From: Sipunculus nudus
Taxonomy: Eukaryota; Annelida; Sipuncula; Golfingiida; Sipunculidae
DNA length: 64,000 nucleotides
Direction: 5' to 3'
NCBI GenBank assembly: GCA_026874595.1
Contig: CM049314.1
Location: 53,613,812-53,677,811, forward strand
Shown: in pieces, positions 1 to 61,229 of the stretch
Layout of the letters: every line of letters begins with the position of its first letter
Position numbering within the stretch: the first letter of the stretch is position 1
Made by a program: the position numbers and the translations under genes
The notes under the pieces: model-generated
What the model was told of the DNA's origin: nothing
What the model saw: only the letters and a program-made list of their open reading frames with translations
Databases searched by the model: none

Positions 1-3000
1 AGGAAAGTCTTGTGAGCAGAGGTATCGTGTCAGCAGGATGGTCGTGTAAACAGAGGTATCGTGTGAGCGGAATGGTCTTGTTAACAGAGTTATCGTGTCA
101 ACAGCATGGTCATTTAAACAGAGGTATCGTGTCAGCAGGATGGTCGTATAAGCAGAGGTATCGTGTCAGCAGGATGTTCGTGTAAACAGAGGTATCGTGT
201 GAGCAGGATGGTCTTGTTAACAGAGGTATCGCGTCAACAGGATGGTCATGTAAGCAGAGGTATCGTGTCAGCACGATGGTCGTGTAAGCAGAGGTATCAT
301 GTCAGCATGATGGTCGTGTAAACAGAGGTATTGTGTGAGCAGGATGGTCTTGTTAACAGAGCTATCGTGTCAATAGAATGGTCATGTAAACAGAGGTATC
401 GTGTCAGCGGGATGGTCATGTAAACAGAGGTATCGTGTCAGCAGGATGGTCGTGTAAGAAGAGGTATCGTGTCAGCAGGATGGTCTTGTGAGCAGAGGTA
501 TCGTGTCAGCAGGATGGTCTTGTGAGCAGAAGTATCGTGTCAACAGGATGGTCATGTAAACAGAGGTATCGTGTCAGCAGGATGGTCATGTAAACAGAGG
601 TATCGTGTGAGCAGGATGGTCTTGTTAACAGAGGTATCGTGTGAGCAGGATGGTCTTGTTAACAGAAGTATCGTGTCAACAGGATGGTCATGTAAACAAA
701 AGTATCCTGTCAGCAGGATGGTCGTGTAAGCAGAGGTATCGTGTCAACAGGATGGTCGTGTAAACAGAGGTATCGTGTGAGCGGGATGGTCTTGTTAACA
801 GAGGTATCGTGTCAACAGGATCGTCGTGTAAACAGAGGTATCGTGTGAGCGGGATGGTTGTGTAAGCAGAGGTATCGTGTCAGCAGAATGGTCGTGTAAG
901 CAGAGGTATCGTGTCAGCAGGATGGTCGTGTAAGCAGATGTATCGTGTCAGCAGGATGGTCGTGTAAGCAGAGGTATCATGTCAGCATGATGGTCGTGTA
1001 AACAGAGGTATTTTGTGAGCAGGATGGTCTTGTTAACAGGGCTATCGTGTCAATAGGATGGTCATGTAAACAGAGGTATCGTGTCAGCAGGATGGTCGTG
1101 TAAGGAGAGGTATCGTGTTAGCAGGATGGTCTTGTGAGCAGAGATATCGTGTCAACAGTGTCAGAGGTATCGTGTCAGCAAGATGGTAATGTAAACAGAG
1201 GTTTCGTGTCAGCAAAATGGTCGTGTAAACAGAGGTATCGTGTCAGCAGGATGGACGTATAAACAGAGGTATCGTGTGAGCAGGATGGTCTTGTTAACAG
1301 AGGTATCGTGTCAACAGGATGGTCATGTAAGCAGAGGTATCGTGTCAGCACGATGGTCGTGTAAGCAGAGGTATCATGTCAGCATGATGGTCGTGTAAAC
1401 AGAGGTATTGTGTGAGCAGGATGGTCTTGTTAACAGAGCTATCGTGTCAATAGAATGGTCATGTAAACAGAGGTATCGTGTCAGCGGGATGGTCATGTAA
1501 ACAGAGGTATCGTGTCAGCAGGATGGTCTTGTGAGCAGAGGTATCGTGTCAGCAGGATGGTCTTGTGAGCAGAAGTATCGTGTCAACAGGATGGTCATGT
1601 AAACAGAGGTATCGTGTCAGCAGGATGGTCATGTAAACAGAGGTATCGTGTGAGCAGGATGGTCTTGTTAACAGTGGTATCGTGTGAGCAGGATGGTCTT
1701 GTTAACAGAAGTATCGTGTCAACAGGATGGTCATGTAAACAAAAGTATCCTGTCAGCAGGATGGTCGTGTAAGCAGAGGTATCGTGTCAACAGGATGGTC
1801 GTGTAAACAGAGGTATCGTGTGAGCGGGATGGTCTTGTTAACAGAGGTATCGTGTCAACAGGATGGTCGTGTAAACAGAGGTATCGTGTGAGCGGGATGG
1901 TCTTGTTAACAGAGTTATCGTGTCAACAGGATGGTCATGTAAGCAGAGGTATCGTGTCAACAGGATGGTCATGTAAGCAGAGGTATCGTGTCAGCAGGAT
2001 GGTCTTGTAAGCAGAGGTATCGTGTCAGCAGGATGGTCGTGTAAGCAGAGGTATCGTGTCAGCAGGATGGTAATGTTAACAGAGGTATCGTGTCAGCAGG
2101 ATGGTCTTATGAGAAGAGGTATCGTGTCAGCAGGATGGTCGTGTAAACAGAGGTATCGTGTGAGCGGGATGGTCTTGTTAACAGAGGTATCGTGTCAACA
2201 GGATGGTCGTGTAAGCAGAGGTATCGTGTCAGCAGGATGGTCTTGTGAGCAGAGTTATCGTGTCAGCAGGATAGTCTTGTGAGCAGAGGTATCGTGTCAG
2301 CAGGATAGTCTTGTGAGCAGAGGTATCGTGTCAGCAGGATGGTCGTGTAAACAGAGGTATCGTGTGAGCGGAATGGTCTTGTTAACAGAGTTATCGTGTC
2401 AACAGGATGGTCATTTAAACAGAGGTATCGTGTCAGCAGGATGGTCGTATAAGCAGAGGTATCGTGTCAGCAGGATGGTCGTGTAAACAGAGGTATCGTG
2501 TGAGCAGGATGGTCTTGTTAACAGAGGTATCGTGTCAACAGGATGGTCATGTAAGCAGAGATATCGTGTCAGCAGGATGGTCTTGTTTACAGAGGTATCG
2601 TGTCAACAGGATGGTCATGTAAACAGAGGTATCGTGTCAGCAGGATGGTCGTATAAGCAGAGGTATCGTGTCAGGAGGATGGTCGTGTAAACAGAGGTAT
2701 CGTGTGAGCAGGATGGTCTTGTTAACAGAGGTATCGTGTCAACAGGATGGTCGTGTAAGCAGAGGTATCATGTCAGCATGATGGTCATGTAAACAGAGGT
2801 ATTGTGTGAGCAGGATGGTCTTGTTAACAGAGCTATCGTGTCAATAGGATGGTCATGTAAACAGAGGTATCGTGTCAGCGGGATGGTCATGTAAACAGAG
2901 GTATCGTGTCAGCAGGATTGTCGTGTAAGGAGAGGTATCGTGTCAGCAGGATGGTCTTGTGAGCAGAGGTATCGTGTCAGCAGGATAGTCTTGTGAGCAG

Positions 3001-3448
3001 AAGTATCGTGTCAGCAGAATGGTCTTGTGAGCAGAGGTATCGTGTCAGCAGGATGGTCGTGTAAGCAGAGGTATCGTGTCAGCAGGATGGTCCTGTAAAC
3101 AGAGGTATCGTGTCAACAGGATGGTCATGTAAACAGAGGTATCGTGTCGGCAGGATGGTCGTGTAAGCAGAGGTATCGTGTCAACAGGATGGTCATGTAA
3201 GCAGAGACATCGTGTTAGCAGGATGGTCGTGTAAGCAGAGGTATCGTGTCAGCAGGATAGTCGTTTCAGCAGAGTGGTCGTGTGGGCAGAGTGCTCATAT
3301 CAGGGATATCGTGTCAGCAGGGTAGTTAGACTAAACAGAGATATCGTGTCAGCAGGGTGGTCGTGTCAGCAGGGTGGTCGTGTAGACAGTACTCATGTCC
3401 GCAGGGTGGTCGTGAAGACAGGGTGCTCATGTCAGCAGGGCAAGCCAT
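1..3448. repeat. 34-bp minisatellite array, about 95 copies
   Basis: Tandem array with a period of exactly 34 bp (for example successive units at 21 and 55). A typical unit contains GTATCGTGTCAGCAGGATGG followed by TCGTGTAAGCAGAG. Variants recur in a patterned order: GTGAGC or GTCAAC for GTCAGC, and TCTTGTTAAC or TCATGTAAAC for TCGTGTAAGC. The array runs off the left edge of the window. From about 3255 it degenerates into units containing CAGGGTGGTCGTGT and stops near 3448. Open frames inside it (for example 2022-2282) are by-products of the repeat, since 34 is not a multiple of three and most frames hit TAA or TGA. Confidence 0.97.
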
Positions 3449-11676: not shown

Positions 11677-14600
11677 AGTGGGTGAGTTAAGTGCATAAAA
11701 TAGGCTGTTGACTTCATTTCATGATGCAAAGGTCCCCTTTGGCATAAAAGTACCTTAGGGTCATAGGATTAAATTTATCCAAAGACACAAGTTAGATCTC
11801 CCTTAGTATGTGAAATATATGCAAATTATTCAAAATGGCCGCCGAAAATACTCCAAACCCATATGCTTGCTGCTGTTACAGCTATAATGACAAATTTTGT
11901 GTCAAAATATACATTTTCTTGGTCAAGGAATCCAATGAAATAGGTTTCCAGATTGAGAAAACAATAGTTTTCTCCTTAACATGAAAATCTGGGGTAAAAT
12001 GGGCACATTTCATAAAATATCAATGATTTTCTTCCATCAGGGTAACCTGAGACACTTGAGACATCTATGTCCTTGGTATTTGGGAGGTATTAAACAGTTG
12101 TGAATAGACCATGAAGACGCGTCTAACTGAACACAATCCTCAGTCGACATACATAGAGCATGAAACCACAGGAAATTTAAAGCATTAACTAGAGAATTAC
12201 TGGTACGTGGCACTTAATTAATCTGAGTTTAGGCAGTACAGCAAGACCATGGTATTACAAGGACAGATATACAGTTTTTTCTTTTTTTTTAAGAATCACC
12301 CAATGAAATACCCACATTCTTGCTCTATCACCGATCAAATACCCACACAGGATCCTCTACTACTAGCAAATATACATAAGGCCTTGGTTGTGGTTTTTTA
12401 CGCATGTACTGTTATTTCATTTATATACATTATCTGGGTAATACGGCATAAAATGACCTTTCTCGAAAGTACAGCATGCATGAGATATATATAAAACCAG
12501 AGTACCAGTACACACAGGAATGGGTAGACATTCCTGTAGGAGAACACAATAAAGTTGCCAATTGTGGTTCCTTCCCAGATTCTAAAATTTTGATTCGACA
12601 GAATATATTGCTTGAAATATATCTTATCTATCTCATGATCTATCTCATGATGGCCAACCCATAATAGTAAATGATCAATGCTGAAAACTAAAAAGCCATC
12701 AGTTCTTGATATTCTTGGTGTTTATGCTTCGCCAATAAGTTTAGGGTTTTATAGTGAAATATCCTAAAAACTGTTCTCATTTCTATTTTTTACAAGTAAT
12801 GTTTAGGGAACTGAAGGAATTAGATGTCTTATATTTTAGTTGTGGGTGAAATGATTGTTGAAGTAATGGTGGCAGTGCTGATTGTTCAGGATGTGGTGCA
12901 GGTTATATCAATGAATCCAGTATTGTTCACAAAAACTGCAATAATGCCACCGATCATCAGCATGTTAATGATGCAATAATAAACTTGCAACCGAAGTATA
13001 AGCACAGCAAGAAGGCGTGATGCCAAGTCCGCCTAACAGGCTTTAATTACCTCTCACTTCCGTGCAATATAACCTTTTACACTAGTCATAACAGAAAAGC
13101 AGAAAGTGTTGAATGTAATGTCTAAATGTAATTCAATAAAGTTTAGAATTTGATAAATTGTAACTTTATCACTTTACATGGACTCAGAGAAACTACTGAC
13201 CTGGAAAGGGTCACTGTCATCTATTCTCATAGCTTTCCCGGGAATTGAAACTGGGTATAGCCAGCACAGAGATTAAAGTCTATTACCACTCGACTCCTAT
13301 GTTCCATGTTCTCAGTGATTAGCTCTTTATTTAAACATTGCGTCCAAAGACATTTCTTTCCGTTGCCAAAAATCAGCTATAATCTTTGGGCAAAAGGATC
13401 TCACATGTACTCCCTGAGGATCCAGTCACCTCTTGGTCCACATATGTTCCTGGTGTCCAATGTCCATGGGGAAGTAAATAATTTTCTTCTCAGTAAGATC
13501 CAAATTGAAGTGGTATAGAAAATTGGTAGTGTCCTTTGTCATATAAAGAGATTAAGACACTAATTTACTTACATCATGCAATGAAAATACATCTTAAACC
13601 TAGATATGCACAAGTCGCGGTAATGCATAAGTGTGAATAATATGTCATTTAACCTTAACAATACCCCGAACAGACCTAGGAAATTAAGTTATCAGTACCT
13701 GGGAGTATACAAGTGTCAGGGCTTACACCAAGAAAATAACCCTTTAGGTTCCATCAGTGGAAAACAAATATTTTTAGGGTTGTAAAGCTGACCATTTGTC
13801 AATGATTCTCCAAAGTTAGGTAATCTCTGATGAACTTATTTAGCAAATCCCATTCAGTCATGTCGCACCAGCAGCTTTATGTTACTATGTATAACCCTTT
13901 CAGGCATGGGCCACGTTGATAAACAGCAGCAGCGCCCGTCATGTTACTTGTCTCTGACCTCTTCAGCAAATTCTCACACATTTCCAATCAAACAAATAAT
14001 CAGTTTTTTTTTCCAGAAAAAAACTAATTCTTGCTCATAAAAATTTAATAAAATGTGTATGTTATACTTTAACAGTTGGTCACAACTAACCTGAAAAGGG
14101 GGCTCAAACTGCTTTGACGTCAGCAAGACACGCCACAAATGTCACTTAAAATTCGAAGGGCCTATAACATAAACAGTACTGGACATTTTATTTAACCTAT
14201 GAAGCAAGATATAGGTTTTCTTTAATTTATGCTGTGGTACCACAATGTGATAATTCCTATGCACACAATCCATTAGTTTTAATTGAAGTGCAATGCTCCT
14301 AAGTTTTTCAGGGTCACCTGCCGATATTCTGCAGATGAATTTGGCAAGTAGGGCCATACCAGGTCACATTTGGGTTTTTAGGGAGATTTCTAAGATTGTA
14401 ATACATGTTGTGCTTACTCGTTAGAATTTCAACAGATATCAGGCGGCTATTAAGTTCATTATAAATATTAATAAACACCAAAGTCCAGGAATCACTCCAA
14501 TCTAAAAGATAGATGTTTGAGGATTTGGCTTCAGAAGTATACACACATTCTCAAATGCAGTTTGACTAGATCTGTAAACAAGCAATGTTTGGCCAAGTTT

Positions 14601-16535
14601 ATCAATTTGTGACTGTCCTGTGACAACTCTGATAGTAGTACTGCCTTTCTGTGCATAAGGGACTTTTACTAATGTGATTCGTGCAATGGACTTCACTATC
14701 CAGAATGCTAGATTCTGGGAAATAGGTGCTTCCATTTTTATCAAATGCACATCTTAAATTGATTATGTGATGATTATATCGCACAAGACCTGAAAGTTGT
14801 GCATTGAAGCTCAAGCAGACGATAATCTTTTGTTGGCAATAAAGAAATTCTCATGTCCACTGTGTACAGCTGCCAATACCTCTGTGTACTCCGTATGTGA
14901 CAGAGTGAAACCTATGTAAGCCGTGCAAAACGTATGGTTTAAGGGGTATTAAAGAGATATTGTATTCCAGAACATGGCAGTAAATTTGAAAACTTACGGA
15001 AGCAAGACTATGGAAGTGTGTTCTTACGTTCAATTAAATTATATCTGATCATAAGCATAATTATATATTATTCGAATAGCATGCAGCTTAATTATTTCTC
15101 CACGCAATACAAATTTGTTTATCACTTTGTTGTGGTTTTATGCTCTGTATGCAGTGAATCGCACACATCGGGTACATATACACTGGTATTAAATGCTCCC
15201 CTGTCTATATAAGGATAATAAACAAGAACTTATAAAGGAATATAATACAAAACCAATCAAAGATATTAAAAGTTTTCATGATGACACTAAAATTTATTGA
15301 AATTTACATACTTTCCCCATAATTTTAAGGTAGGATGAATACTTTTAGTTCATTACTTCAACAATCATTTAATCCACAATAAAACATAACACATCTAATT
15401 CCTTCAGTTACCTGACGTTACTTGTAAAAATAGAAATACGAACACACCTTTCAGGATACGTGTATTTCCCTATAAAACCCAATAACTAACTGGAGAAGCA
15501 TAAAAACCAAGAGTGTCAATGACTGTTGGCTTTTGTGCTTTTGGTATTGATCAACTATTAAGGGTTGACCATCATGAGATAGATAATATGTGTCTCAAAC
15601 AAAATATTCTGTTGAATCAAAATGTTAGATACTGGGAAGAAACTACAGTTGGCAACATTATTGAGTTTTGTTACAGGAATGTCTTCCCATTCCTGTGTGT
15701 ACTGGTACTCTGCTTTTGCCAAGTAAATCCCATGCATGTTGTGAGGTCCAGAAGGGTCAGTTTATGCCGTATTACCCAGATAATGTATATAAATGAAATA
15801 ACAGTACATGCGTAAAAAAACCACAACCAAGGCCTTATGTATATTTGCTAGTAAAAGAGCATCGTGTGTGGGTATTTGATCGGTGATAGAGCAAGAATGT
15901 GGGTATTTCATTGGGTGATTCTTAAAAAAAAGAAAAAAAAACTGTATATCTGTCCTTGTAATACCATGGTCTTGCTGTACTGCCTAAACTCAGATTAAGT
16001 AAGTGCCACGTACCAGTAATTCTCTAGTTAATGCTTTAAATTTCCTGTGGTTTCATGCTCTATGTATGTCGACTGAGGATTGTGTTCAGTTAGACGCGTC
16101 TTCATGGTCTATTCACAACTGTTTAATACCTCCCAAATGCCAAGGACATAGATGTCTCAAGTGTCTCAGGTTACCATGATGGAAGAAAATCATTTATATT
16201 TTATTAAATGTGCCCATTTTACCCCAGATTTTCATGTTAAGGAGAAAACTATTGTTTTCTCAATCTGGAAACCTATTTCATTGGATTCCTTGACCAAGAA
16301 AATGTATATTTTGACACAACATTTGTCATTATAGCTGTAACAGCAGCAAGCATATGGGGTTTGGAGTATTTTCGGCGGCCATTTTGAATAATTTGCATAT
16401 ATTTTACATACTAAGGGAGATCTAACTTGTGTCTTTGGATAAATTTATTCCTATGACCCTAAGGTACTTTTGTGCCAAAGGGGACCTTTGCATCATGAAA
16501 TGAAGTCAAAAGTCACTTAACCCACCTACTAGTAG
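11677..16535. mobile_element. 4.9-kb palindrome with inverted arms of about 1.2 kb
   Basis: The left arm (about 11677-12880) and right arm (about 15345-16535) are inverted copies. Outer ends are GTGGGTGAGTTAAGTG and CACTTAACCCAC. Landmarks shared in inverse order include CATGATGCAAAGGTCCCC, the AATGGCCGCCGAAAATACTC block, GAAGACGCGTCTAACTGAAC, CAAGACCATGGTATTACAAG, GGTAATACGGCATAAA and ATTTCTATTTTTTACAAGTA. Similarity by eye is high but with indels. The loop of about 2.4 kb contains no recognised protein. Open frames in the arms occur in matching positions on opposite strands (12249-12494 against 15513-15815) and reflect the duplication. It could be a foldback DNA transposon or an inverted segmental duplication; no target duplication was identified. 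Confidence 0.8.
14142..14814 (-). pseudogene. Broken minus-strand coding-like tract in the palindrome loop
   Basis: Four overlapping minus-strand open frames of 70-82 codons tile this segment in different frames, more densely than the surroundings, as expected of a formerly longer frame broken by frameshifts. The frame at 14602-14814 contains SSILDSEVHCTNHISKSPLC; that at 14142-14357 contains KFICRISAGDPEKLRSIALQ. I recognise no family. It may be the remnant of the protein once carried by the inverted-repeat element, or chance. Confidence 0.2.
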
Positions 16536-25982: not shown

Positions 25983-26658
25983 TTATTACATAAAATTAAA
26001 ATATATAACAAAATCTTTTAAAATATACATCATGGTAACAGCCTTGATATGAATGATGCAGTCAGACATTCAGTTATCTACTCATGGATGCAAAATCAAA
26101 TTTGATAACTAGAATTTCGACTACACATATTTCAATACAACTGCACGTTAAATATACCCTGTCAGATAATACATTTTACTGTTTACGAATGTGCGCATGA
26201 GATCTATCGTGGAACTTCAAACAGCTCTCATGTGTGGAGAATGCGAGAAATCATGTCACGAGAACTACCGTGAATTTCTCCCTGTGTGGAGGTTGGCGTG
26301 TACCCACCCTTCCGCCAGAGGTCGTTTCTACTCAAAACGAATCTCTTCTGTTTGGGCACTGTGGGAAGGACCGAACTACTTGACAAGTGTAGCCGGTACC
26401 AAATATATCATGCACCTATAGTTCGTCCCAGTACCCGTGTCAACATGTTTTTCTGGGATGATTTTTCATACGTGTAAAGCAGTGTAAACCTTTCTTGTCC
26501 AAAAACAGGAGCTATTCCGCCGACTACCTGCGTAAAAAGTAATGCCTTACCTTGTTTTGATTTTGTATGAGACAATCTAAAATATGACAAAACAAGTTAC
26601 AGATTTTACGAATTATTCCTTGTCTGAGAACTGATAATAAAAAAGCCAGTCAAACATA
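25983..26658. other. Upstream region, no gene supported
   Basis: The plus-strand frame 26191-26421 (76 codons) and an overlapping frame (26286-26477) lie in a slightly GC-richer patch. Neither has a motif I recognise. Confidence 0.4.
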
Positions 26659-26717
26659 TGACGTCAGTCAATTGAAGGTGACGCGCGACCGATCACAGTG
26701 ACGTCTTTGTGACGTCA
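26659..26717. promoter_or_regulatory. Cluster of cAMP-response-element-like sites
   Basis: Two full TGACGTCA palindromes (26659-26666 and 26710-26717) and a TGACGTCT variant (26699-26706) occur within 59 bp, in a segment that also contains GGTGACGCGCGACC. Such clusters bind CREB/ATF-type factors. With the 27157-30844 and 26958-27038 insertions subtracted, the cluster would lie about 0.4 kb upstream of the CFAP300 start codon. Confidence 0.45.
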
Positions 26718-26957
26718 CTGATGTCTAACGAACACAAAAACACAGCCATAGGCACGGAAAGTGTACCATGGAGGAATGTACTGTCCAGCAGTGCCGATAA
26801 GACGCCATCCACGGTATTTCAGCAATAAGGCAAAAGAGTCGCAAAGTGAATTCGTTTTACATGATAACTAGGCTACTTTGTACAAAATCCGACGCATTTT
26901 AACGGACTACATTGGCTCATTTTCACCACTTGTATATTTCCGCTGTCAGTGTACATG

Positions 26958-27038
26958 TAGACTGGTACCCCGCTCTATTATGGCACCGCTTCTCTAGGCC
27001 AAGGCTTGAGGGCCTTAATAGAGCAGGGTACCAGTCTA
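26958..27038. mobile_element. 81-bp miniature inverted-repeat element with 10-bp target duplication
   Basis: TAGACTGGTACCCCGCTCTA at the left and its inverse, ending GGTACCAGTCTA, at the right form arms of about 23 bp around a short loop. It is flanked by AGTGTACATG (26948-26957) and AGTGAACATG (27039-27048), a direct repeat matching at 9 of 10 positions. The terminus is the same as that of the 3.7-kb element at 27157-30844. Confidence 0.75.
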
Positions 27039-27156
27039 AGTGAACATGTTGATGCCGCGCGGTGCATTATTGGAGTCAGATTTTGACTCCAACAATCCCT
27101 AGACAGCAATGTCGTACTATTTAGAGTCCGAGTCTGCGCAGTGTGGGCATGTACCT

Positions 27157-27667
27157 TAGACTGGTACCCCGCTCTATTATGGCAGCCGCTGCTCTAGGCC
27201 AATCATAGAGACGGGCGTACAACGCCATTTTATTTACTCCCGGCAGACTGTTTCCAACTCCAGTATGTATTATATGATAAAAATAAGCATTTCGTTTGCT
27301 CAGAGAAGTTACCTAAAGTTGGCTGTACATTATGTGTGACATTAATGATTAGATTAATAGATATTAATAATAAATCATTGCTACGCACAGTGGAATATCA
27401 AAGATACAGTATATCGTATTATCTATACATCCATCATTCAATTTTTGTGCAACATATCATTCTTCAATATTTGAAAACTAGAAATAACAAAAGAAAAATA
27501 TTTTATAAAAAAATCTTCATGGATTATCAGCCAGGATCGCGTGAACGTCCATGACAACCGGTATGAGCGTGCATACTGGAGTTGGAACCAGTCTACGGGT
27601 AAGTCAGGAGTTGCAACTGGGAGTACTGTACGCCTGTCTCTATGCTTGGCTGAGAGCCATAATAGAG
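27157..27667. mobile_element. Extra hairpin unit fused into the left end of the 3.7-kb element
   Basis: 27157-27266 and 27572-27667 are inverted copies: GCTCTAGGCCAATCATAGAG, GGCGTACA and TTCCAACTCCAGTATG on the left face CATACTGGAGTTGGAA, TGTACGCC and CTCTATGCTTGGCTGAGAGC on the right. The unit lacks its own final GGTACCAGTCTA; instead CCATAATAGAG runs straight into GGGAGGGTATAATTCGC, the subterminal sequence of the larger element. It looks like a second family member merged into the left end by recombination at the shared terminus. Confidence 0.6.
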
Positions 27668-30600
27668 GGGAGGGTATAATTCGCTGATCAGCGCGCTGAT
27701 CAGCGGTCTGCAGTATAAAACGCTGATCAGCGCGCTGATCAGCCACCTTTAAAAGACAGCATTGATTTCCGGCAAATTATCTCCCATACAGCAACCTCCG
27801 CCTATTTTGTGATTAAATATGATAAAAAGACACTTTTCCTATCAGTATTACGTATTCACAAACATATACATTTATTTTTATTGTGTTTATAATTATACAT
27901 GAAACGCAAGTTACCTGCCAGTGACTATTTCGCTGATCAGCGGGCTGATCAGGAACCCTTCTTCCAAGCAATTATTTTAGACAAATTAGCCCCATATAAC
28001 AACCTCCGACTATTATATGATTAAATTTGATTTAAAGATACATATTCTATAAGTGTTTCATATTTACAAACAAACGAAAACACTTTTAATGTGTTACTTA
28101 TTATGCATGAAACCTTTCTACCACCTACTATTTCGCTGATCAGCAAACTGCGCAATCGCTGATCGGCAATGATTTACGTACTTCTTGACTAAGATACCTG
28201 TCACGGGTGATTCGCTATAATGGTAATACTGAAGGCTCTCAGTTGTTTTACTTATATCCTGTGAAACCGAGTGATTGCCAATACATCGCCCATTCCAGGC
28301 TACTTCATACAACTTTAAAATATCAGTCCCCCACCGACCACTCGGAGATATTAGCTAACAGTAGGGGGCGCTGCATTAATTAATGTCAGGTGTTCACCGG
28401 CCAGGTGAGATAAATAGCTGAGATATGAACTTAGTATGAATGTATATAAAATTTGAATTTATCGAAAAAAAATGTTAAATGTATATGGCCATAAAAAAAG
28501 ACTGATTATCCTCTTATTTTTTATTAAGAACTGTACGTATAGCCTATAAGGATTCTTTCACTCTTCATTTATAATATAATCGTTCCTTAAAAACTTTCTC
28601 GAGTTTCTTTACATCCCTCTTATATTTCCCCTTTTTGCATTTAAAAAGTGGGTCGCCAGAATCTTTTTCAACACCATTGTATAGATGATTTGATCGATTT
28701 TAACACGATGTTGATAGACTACTCCTGTTTTAATCCCACTTATATATATATTATATATATATGTTGAAGTACGTCAAAGAATAACTCAACAAAAACATCA
28801 TTATCGGTATTTTTTTTTATTTTTTTTCATTTTACAACAGGACATTTCCATTATTGTGTAAAATTTTCCGCATATCTATTGCTTTATCATCGATACATAT
28901 AAAAAACGATTGGAATATGAATGCTTTTCATAGTTTTGGAAAACAGCATACACTACCAACATAAATATAATGAGTACTAGAAAGGTTGAAGGAGTAATTA
29001 CTTTTAATTACAACACTACAATAAATCATCATCTTTTTTTTTAACTTTTAACGGCAGTGAATGTCGATGAACGGTGTTGAAACAATAAGGTAACAGGATG
29101 GATGTAACCTCTAAATTCTACAATGGCATTGTTATTCAGAACTTTATCGTTTTTATAGGGATCAATGTGTTAGGTATTATAAAATATTAAACTCTTAAAA
29201 ATTTATTATAAAAGAAGTCTGCATGCTTCGAGTAATAATTTTGCCAATGATTTCATTTATTTTAATTCAACACAGTTCTCCTTCTTTAGCACAGTTATAT
29301 GTTGAAATAGGCATCATTTCAAGAAATAAATAAAATGACTTAGAAATATGTTAGGAAAATGATTTTATCGCCCACATTTTTATTGACCGAGGAAGATTGC
29401 TATAAATTTCCCTTTTATTTATTGCATTATACCTTCTGTGGGTTGCAGTTTTATTTTGTTTCAGGATATAATCGGAACAAATTTAAATTAAAAATACGCA
29501 ATTTACAAGGTTAAAATATATTTTTATAATACAATACATCGTACAAGTGAATCTTCCATATTTTTTTCTATATAAATTATGCGGGACCGCGCAAGTCTGT
29601 AACAGTGTTGAAATTGATGATACACTTAGGGCATTAATTTAGCCGAAACTATAATTTAATATGAAAGTACCTGTTCTGCTAAAAGAAATTTTATACACTA
29701 GTAGTTAATATTTTTATTGCCATAATAGACTCCAAAAAAATAAATATTAAGATGTCATTTTTCAGATGCTGTATACCTGCTGAAATGGGAAGTTTTTCGT
29801 AGAAAGACCCATTAAATTTTAAATCCTTTTACGGTTTCTTTAGGTGAACGACTATATATGCCTTCTTCTAAATAATTAATGATTGCCCTCTCACTTTTGT
29901 CTGATCAAAATACACGTTTTTCCTATATAGGCCTACTTTTAAATTAATTTTAAAAAATCAACAATATTAGAGATTGCAAAAAAATCCACAGTCCAAATAT
30001 TTTGCTGTTGGTTCATTCGTGGTATTTTCACTTAAATATATATGCAAGATATTGTAAATAAATTAAAATTTTAAAATTCAATTAAACTTAGTATTAATCT
30101 CGGCTATTTCTATCATCTGGCCGGTGAAATATACCAACAAATTACTGCAGCGCCCCCTACTGTCAGCTAATATCTCCTGTGGGGAACGGATTTTTGTAAA
30201 TTGTATGTGGTACGATGTTTTGGCAGTCATTCGGGTTTCACAGGAAATAATTAAGTAAACAACTGAGAGGTTTCTATGTTACCATTATAGAGAATCACAG
30301 ATGACAGGTATCATAGTCATGAAATACATATGACATATTGTCATATATGTCATTGCCGATGAGCACTTTATCAGCGTCAAGTGATTGCGCAGTTTGCTGA
30401 TCAGCGAAATAGGTGGTAGAAAGGTTTCATGTAACACATTAAAAGTGTTTTCGTTGTTTATGAATATGAAACATTGATAGAATATATATCTTTAGATCAT
30501 AATCACACAATAGTCGGAGGTTGTTATATTTGGGCTAATTTGTCTAAAATAAATGCTTGGTTTGAAAGGTTCCTAATCTGCGCCGCTGATCAGCGAAATA

Positions 30601-30844
30601 GTCACTGGCATGTAACTTGCGTTTTCATGTATAATTATGAACACAATAAAAATATATGCATATCTTTGTAAATACGTAACACTGATAGGAAAGGTGTCTT
30701 TTAATCATATTTAAACACAAAATAGGCGGAGGTTGCTGTATGGGAGATAATTTGCCTCAAATTAATGCTTTAATTGAAAGGTGGCTGATCAGCGCGCTGA
30801 TCAGCGAATTATACCCTCCCATAATAGAGCAGGGTACCAGTCTA
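27157..30844. mobile_element. 3.7-kb long-inverted-repeat transposon, Mutator-like by target duplication
   Basis: The left end is TAGACTGGTACCCCGCTCTA and the right end is its inverse, GGTACCAGTCTA at 30833-30844. Flanks are GCATGTACCT (27147-27156) and GCGTGTACCT (30845-30854), matching at 9 of 10. Long inverted arms (about 27668-28470 and 30050-30828) agree closely by eye, for example AACCTCCGCCTATTTTGTG and TTACCTGCCAGTGACTATTT against their inverses. The 1.6-kb centre is AT-rich with no transposase frame, so the element is non-autonomous. A 10-bp target duplication with long terminal repeats fits Mutator-like elements; other superfamilies cannot be excluded. The left end carries an extra hairpin unit at 27157-27667. 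Open frames inside (27438-27746, 30474-30940) are not genes. Confidence 0.75.
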
Positions 30845-30847
30845 GCG

Positions 30848-30861
30848 TGTACCTTCGCAAC
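30848..30861 (+). promoter_or_regulatory. Weak candidate X-box (RFX site) just before the CFAP300 start
   Basis: TGTACCTTCGCAAC fits the ciliary X-box consensus (GTNRCC, short spacer, RGYAAC) at about 9 of 12 positions and lies 15 bases before the ATG. Ciliary genes are commonly regulated by RFX factors through such sites. The match is imperfect and the site overlaps the transposon's target duplication. Confidence 0.25.
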
Positions 30862-30876
30862 TTCGTTAGCGTCATC

Positions 30877-61229
<30,353 letters not shown>

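Follow-up and report, generated by a model that had tools for sequence, protein, structure and literature searches.

Mutator-like elements (MULEs) duplicate 8-11 bp of target DNA upon insertion (PMC6446971), and most of those from arthropods carry G/C at their first three terminal bases (PMC13359780). Two animal families are close in their construction to the locus described below. Tm1, a Mutator/Foldback family of root-knot nematodes, combines composite long arms containing a repeated short motif with mostly 9-bp duplications (range 8-10), mostly non-coding, MITE-like members, and nested insertions (PMC3169594). In Aedes aegypti, the active Mutator-like element Muta1, assigned to the type-2 Foldback class, generates 8- or 9-bp duplications, possesses arms of more than 100 bp with subterminal repeats, and is accompanied by many truncated non-coding derivatives (PMC5225508).

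The interval 27147..30854 resembles these families in the traits just listed. It lies in a 64,000-nucleotide stretch of Sipunculus nudus DNA, hereafter the window (C9:53613812-53677811), taken from an assembly of 1.4265 Gb in 153 contigs. We read it, with a probability of about 0.9, as two non-autonomous cut-and-paste DNA transposons, an inner element B nested in an outer element A, both of Mutator (9-bp duplication) type. Each represents a family that encodes no protein and has many copies in the host genome. The original prediction, a single 3.7-kb non-autonomous Mutator-like element, was a correct and useful observation that contained one structural error.

A Nested Pair of Transposons Upstream of CFAP300

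The predicted outer termini, TAGACTGGTACC and GGTACCAGTCTA, are present at 27157 and 30844, and the flanks GCATGTACCT (27147..27156, + strand) and GCGTGTACCT (30845..30854, +), identical at nine of ten positions, represent a real target duplication. As foreseen, the element ends 32 bp ahead of the CFAP300 ATG at 30877. The boundaries had been argued from a second element in the window, and this argument holds: A' (26958..27038, +; 81 bp) shares the terminus and is flanked by a separate 10-bp duplication, AGTGTACATG (26948..26957, +) and AGTGAACATG (27039..27048, +), again with nine identities in ten. Consisting of about 45 bp from the left and 36 bp from the right end, A' is an internally deleted copy of the A family and thereby supports the outer boundary.

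The error concerns the arms of about 0.8 kb, which had been ascribed to the outer element. In a repeat map, the outer TAGACTGG repeat pairs over only about 29 bp, and a separate, perfect 37-bp inverted repeat, GGGAGGGTATAATTCGCTGATCAGC..., marks both ends of the stretch from 27668 to 30820, with the long arms lying inward of it. These are the ends of B (27668..30820, +), a non-coding, Foldback-like element of 3153 bp that begins with GGGAGGGTATAATTC and is flanked, within A, by an exact 9-bp duplication, ATAATAGAG, at 27659..27667 (+) and 30821..30829 (+). Element A is thus split into a left portion of 511 bp (27157..27667, +), which starts with TAGACTGGTACCCCGC, ends with the 9-bp target of B and has full-length copies elsewhere, and a right terminal portion of 15 bp, CAGGGTACCAGTCTA (30830..30844, +). 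Removal of B together with one copy of its duplication restores an A element of 526 bp whose ends pair over about 111 bp.

The outer termini and the 10-bp duplication also match what one would expect of a single 3.7-kb long-arm Mutator-like element with TAGACTGG ends. However, the inner 3153 bp possess their own ends, their own duplication and an independent family of copies, and the B insertion point is uninterrupted in all 36 other aligned A copies (no more than three mismatches in 27 bp). As these copies were selected for a length of 495-560 bp, they demonstrate that A occurs without B but not how often B resides in A. Moreover, 19 further B loci were inspected together with their 1.5-kb flanks, and at none of them does A surround B in the fashion seen in the window. 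The single-element explanation is consequently very improbable, and we reject it on account of the independent B copies, the duplication specific to B, and the A copies devoid of B. B-free A copies exist alongside B copies elsewhere, so the two families are independent, and at this locus B arrived after A.

The nested pair lends itself to a model in two steps. An A element of about 0.53 kb with TAGACTGGTACC ends came first, creating a 10-bp duplication at a site 32 bp ahead of the CFAP300 start codon. A B element of 3.15 kb with GGGAGGGTATAATTC ends then entered A close to its right end, duplicating 9 bp of A and bringing along its arms of about 0.8 kb with their repeated 10-bp palindrome. Each element was presumably mobilized by a transposase made elsewhere, and these transposases probably differed because the ends and the target preferences of A and B differ.

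CFAP300, an animal cilia gene, is situated directly downstream of the A/B insertion. Its coding exon 1 (30877..30974, +) and exon 2 (39908-39989), with splice sites read by eye, give a match to the Pfam CFAP300 family when joined (E 1.8e-13). A search for RNA families within 26500-31300 returned none at the gathering threshold, and an exact 26-mer of A had no counterpart in viral contigs.

The Two Families and Their Target Duplications

Searching the genome with the left part of A (511-bp query) yielded 1504 first-look candidates, and the best 40 scored, the window copy included, all match nearly the whole query. The plurality sequence of 37 copies comprises 538 bp with 40% GC, and divergence from it lies at 1.7-10.8% among the copies, with 3.4% for that of the window. 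The terminal inverted repeats of the plurality sequence span about 110-123 bp, and the terminal motif is found again, as the variant AGACTGGTTCC, some 90-100 bp inward of either end. Genome-wide, exact matches to the A terminus number 1617+1592, vs 181+162 for a reversed control pattern. Short, non-coding, abundant and bordered by inverted repeats, A fits the description of a MITE, and its window copy lacks open frames of transposase size.

Target duplications of A were assessed at 58 loci under a fixed rule (paired termini with at most two mismatches in 12 bp; the best duplication among lengths of 7-12 bp, allowing one mismatch). It had been proposed to collect copies with TAGACTGG ends and look for 9-11-bp duplications, and this expectation is borne out: in 48 elements, A' among them, the duplication measures 9 bp in 39 (31 exact) and 10 bp in 9 (5 exact). 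As a single one of 2256 cross-paired flanks passes the rule, chance pairing is negligible. The 10-bp duplication in the window, which like that of A' has one mismatch in ten, is accordingly a minority form of a 9-10-bp habit. No duplication was found under the rule at 14 of the 58 loci: eight (L001-L008) are centered on bare terminus matches, some of them due to chance, five contain a near-complete A with ends or flanks outside the rule (L046, L052, L055-L057), and the last is L021, to which we return below. One A element, seen in both L002 and L003, has both ends and no duplication.

The corresponding search with B gave 508 first-look candidates. Among the 40 scored, at least 20 copies besides that of the window span 3000 or more of the 3153 bp at 87-90% identity, and exact matches to the B terminus amount to 84+88 in the genome, vs 0 for the control. 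We fetched 20 B loci, the window's own included. At three of them one terminus is missing (L067, L072, L077), and all 17 two-ended copies, again counting the window, display a duplication, of 9 bp in 16 and of 8 bp in one. The motif CTAT/ATAG occurs in 7 of 20 B duplications, vs 4.6% of background 9-mers, an observation made post hoc.

The arms of B contain internal modules of about 200 bp and a repeated palindrome, and such internal repetition within long arms gives B its Foldback character. The left arm (27668..28486, +) carries the palindrome GCTGATCAGC at 27683, 27695, 27722, 27734, 27932 and 28135, and the right arm (30036..30820, -) at 30396, 30585, 30784 and 30796. Across the 17 copies, 8-12 exact palindromes are present per copy, confined to the outer 900 bp in 16 of them; the exception is L075, where one is displaced by an inserted A. 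The four palindromes in the right arm of the window B compare with six in 11 of the 17 copies. These palindromes, like the repeated TAGACTGGTWCC motif of A, may serve in transposase binding. The predicted absence of coding capacity was confirmed: the longest open frame of the window B has 78 residues, below the mean of 88 in 200 shuffled sequences, and the longest among the 17 copies has 125. Two fetched B copies of 3.6-3.7 kb (L082, L083) are variants with their own exact 9-bp duplications and no long open frame.

Target Preference and the Position of A at the Tips of B

The flanks of A bear a GC dinucleotide at positions 3-4 outward from the edge of the duplication in 35 of 96 cases, against a baseline of 6% (binomial p about 8e-19). 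This signal was first noticed by inspection and then seen again in the small, separate set of elements with 10-bp duplications (6/18, p 0.002), next to 29/78 in the 9-bp set. GC is equally far from the cut in both sets, a pattern suggestive of paired half-sites whose spacing is flexible. In the window, GC is present at these positions in the right flank of A only and absent from the left flank of A and from both flanks of A'. Flanks of B have GC at these positions in 0 of 32 cases, and a preference displayed by A and lacking in B argues for different transposases.

At 3 of the 19 other B loci, which were chosen on similarity to B alone, a full A element is found no more than 30 bp from a tip of B; the remaining 16 contain no long A match. 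Each of the three has its own exact duplication, of 9, 9 and 10 bp. In L075, A sits inside B at 29 bp from the tip (duplication ATCAGCGCG), and in L063 and L069 it is located outside the tip by 18 and 17 bp, with duplications of 10 and 9 bp that touch those of B. With about 1500 A candidates in 1.43 Gb, or one per megabase, the tips of 19 B copies should by our estimate have fewer than 0.01 A neighbors of this kind. A may prefer the tips of B, or A and B may share a preference for the same sites.

Micro-Elements of Family A

The sizes of A elements are sharply two-peaked, with a separate class of 60-120 bp. Pairs of exact A ends, counted genome-wide in bins covering 60-150 and 294-323 bp, number 126 at 60-90 bp, 66 at 91-120 bp, 4 at 121-150 bp (in one case with the same start as a 90-bp element) and a single one at 294-323 bp; the reversed control pattern has zero matches in each of these bins. 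The 50 pairs listed from the 91-120-bp bin measure 91-114 bp, 47 of them less than 100 bp. Inspection by eye of the first 46 Mb of contig C1 revealed 14 A pairs at 502-550 bp, 4 at 66-89 bp and none in between.

We read 46 micro-elements, comprising 45 of the 50 listed at 60-90 bp plus A'. A looser reading of their junctions gives 33 classes among all 46, and the mean microhomology at the junctions (0.88 vs 0.59 expected, p 0.08) is not significant. In DNA folding, A' proves much more stable than shuffled versions of its sequence (z -7.2).

Superfamily Assignment and Search for Autonomous Partners

With respect to the features typical of MULEs, the duplications of both A and B fall within 8-11 bp, and both families possess inverted repeats of the kind that often exceeds 100 bp in MULEs, about 110-123 bp in A and about 0.8 kb in B. 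The terminal GGG of B agrees with the G/C pattern of most arthropod MULEs and the TAG of A does not, the pattern not being a strict criterion. At least 131 matches to the MULE domain are present in the genome (150 of 252 candidates scored). At seven loci opened among the 131 matches listed, with 4.6-5.0 kb fetched each, A and B termini are absent. One of these (L079) represents an abundant 607-residue FLYWCH-MULE protein and displays neither an A/B terminus nor a clear inverted repeat; the six others likewise drop out as transposase sources, as they have neither terminus.

Unusually long copies were considered as autonomous partners and dismissed in each case. A 2.1-kb A copy (L019) carries a reverse transcriptase (Pfam RVT_1), and a 2.8-kb A copy (L020) holds a 347-residue frame that we read as LINE-like and that has no Pfam match. 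The 3.0-kb L021 has only the outer 27 bp or so in common with A and no duplication, and its five longest open frames have no match above a Pfam cut-off. On the side of B, a 9.5-kb copy (L080) is a B element holding a further inverted-repeat element of about 7 kb, and a 9.3-kb copy (L081), whose flanks match at 7/9, contains reverse-transcriptase fragments recognized by eye.

Hence, as no transposase could be linked to A or B, the Mutator-type assignment is built on duplications and arms; it is good for B and weaker for A, where duplication length and arms are the evidence. With regard to the original prediction, the non-autonomous nature, the outer boundaries and the Mutator-like duplication length stand, and membership in Mutator is unproven.

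Alternative Explanations

Transposases of the Mutator type would account for both families, but A and B might instead be non-autonomous members of other superfamilies, for instance hAT or P/Galileo-type Foldback elements. Such an origin would be in keeping with the missing link to a transposase. P/Galileo Foldback elements create 7-bp duplications (8-bp for P), and hAT elements 8-bp ones. The duplications of our two families speak against both: 9 bp was found in 39/48 A and 16/17 B elements, 7 bp in 0/48 and 0/17, and 8 bp in 0/48 and 1/17. In favor of such an origin, Foldback elements are moved by differing classes of transposases, Galileo by a P transposase (PMC3169594). Against it, the range given for Mutator-like elements is 8-11 bp (PMC6446971). 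We consider an origin outside Mutator unlikely.

For the micro-elements, our preferred, albeit unproven, reading is a recurrent hairpin collapse. On this reading, held tentatively and at somewhat less than even odds, A would collapse repeatedly at independent sites to hairpins of about 64-100 bp by losing its paired inner arms and loop, so that about 33-52 bp remain at the left end and 21-46 bp at the right, with almost no intermediate sizes left. On this view hairpin formation, or gap repair that fails after the transposase has cut, would give rise to micro-elements again and again, in place of one spreading founder. The A transposase would recognize a GC half-site located 2 bp outward from each cut, accept 9- or 10-bp spacing between the half-sites, and be drawn to the tips of B. 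A competing explanation, to which we likewise give a serious chance short of one half, views the A elements of 60-120 bp, A' included, as ordinary MITEs, in which one or a few deleted founders transposed and later small indels blurred the junction. It derives support from the recurrence of junction 45/44 in 10 of the 40 micro-elements with clean junctions (40/46) and of 48/42 in four; the 9- or 10-bp duplications retained by A' and by five micro-elements in the fetched loci agree with it as well, and shortening in place is equally compatible with them. Against it stand the at least 26 distinct junction classes among these 40 elements, the largest with 10 members and 22 of them singletons, and at least one center (C4:27312068) that looks, by eye, like a palindrome newly formed out of the left arm only. 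With 26 classes a single founder is hard to reconcile, although a recurrent class could still have spread.

Significance and Comparison with Known Systems

Collectively, the locus is an ordinary nesting of two non-autonomous transposons, to which the target preference of A, its position at the tips of B and its two-peaked sizes add interest. As the long arms and the terminal sequence derive from different elements, a repeat library that took the 3.7-kb unit as its basis would lump two families together. Two animal transposon families now have duplications checked on many copies. The symmetric target preference of A and its presence at B tips offer testable clues to the target choice of a transposase, and the two-peaked sizes together with the diverse junctions offer such clues to the origin of tiny derivatives. 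A double insertion 32 bp from a start codon offers, furthermore, a natural opportunity to ask whether transposon sequence is tolerated or borrowed by the CFAP300 promoter. Among the open-licence papers listed for our searches, none concerned the A or B termini, and the families may stand in a repeat library; the exact string TAGACTGGTACC has a single match in these papers, in an unrelated plant study.

Given the repeated palindromes in its long arms and its 9-bp duplications, B is built like the Mutator/Foldback families Tm1 and Muta1. Tm1 differs from B in its repeat unit, 13-15 bp in tandem as opposed to a perfect 10-bp palindrome within longer modules, in its asymmetric 7-bp tips, and in having a transposase-bearing member, of which we found none for B; its target sites are reported without a consensus (PMC3169594). 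The transposase of Muta1 is known, unlike those of A and B, and Muta1 is reported to have no target preference, whereas that of A is strong (PMC5225508). The MULE-Mollusca group consists of animal Mutator-like elements, as A and B are candidates to be; unlike for A and B, its duplication length is not indicated and its arms are entered as none in Table 1 of the cited report (PMC6446971). Maize Mu shares with A 9-bp duplications and a symmetric target consensus, a weak one that covers two bases inside and two outside each edge of the duplication, where A has its GC 2 bp outside (PMC2774946). Mu also favors the 5' ends of genes (PMC2774946), and the A/B pair of the window, as a single locus, sits at one such end.

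Insertion sites of families A and B

Copies of family A, the short non-autonomous transposon, lie at the tips of the long-armed element B at three loci fetched from the host genome. At two of them A sits 17–18 bp outside the B tip (L063:944-1482 and L069:4704-5241), and at the third it is found 29 bp inside B, as measured from the tip (L075:937-1474). Each of these A elements is flanked by an exact duplication of its own, and their placement at B tips is far more frequent than expected by chance. Family A also inserts into itself, as one copy is nested in a second at L040:236-1318 and both possess separate duplications.

Among the B loci (L059 to L083), CTAT or ATAG is present in 7 of 20 target duplications against a background of 4.6%, a pattern that was spotted post hoc. 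If this preference holds, the terminal CTCTATTAT of A would consequently be a favoured target of B.

Further repeats and a putative MULE transposase gene family

The 9.5-kb B copy at L080 harbors a further element of about 7 kb (L080:2383-9337), in which inverted-repeat pieces of 97 bp and 71 bp (96–100%) and a 202-bp tandem repeat are present. In the window itself, a second structure with long arms is the inverted repeat at 11705-16512, whose arms, up to 98% complementary, amount to about 0.9 kb in pieces; it contains no 120-aa open frames, and no clear target duplication was found around it.

Tandem arrays occupy positions 7-3366 (34/68-bp unit), 45424-55913 (65-bp unit, about 161 copies) and, within the first intron of CFAP300, 38412-39299 (35-bp unit). 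Reading frames resembling reverse transcriptase were recognized by eye in the same intron (31700-33000).

At C10:28517874 of the host genome (L079:1082-2902), an open frame encodes 607 residues that include FLYWCH and MULE domains; no element ends were found in this one opened copy. The frame recurs with near-identical scores at about 43 genome places, this one included (counted by eye), a pattern that suggests a recently active Mutator-type transposase.
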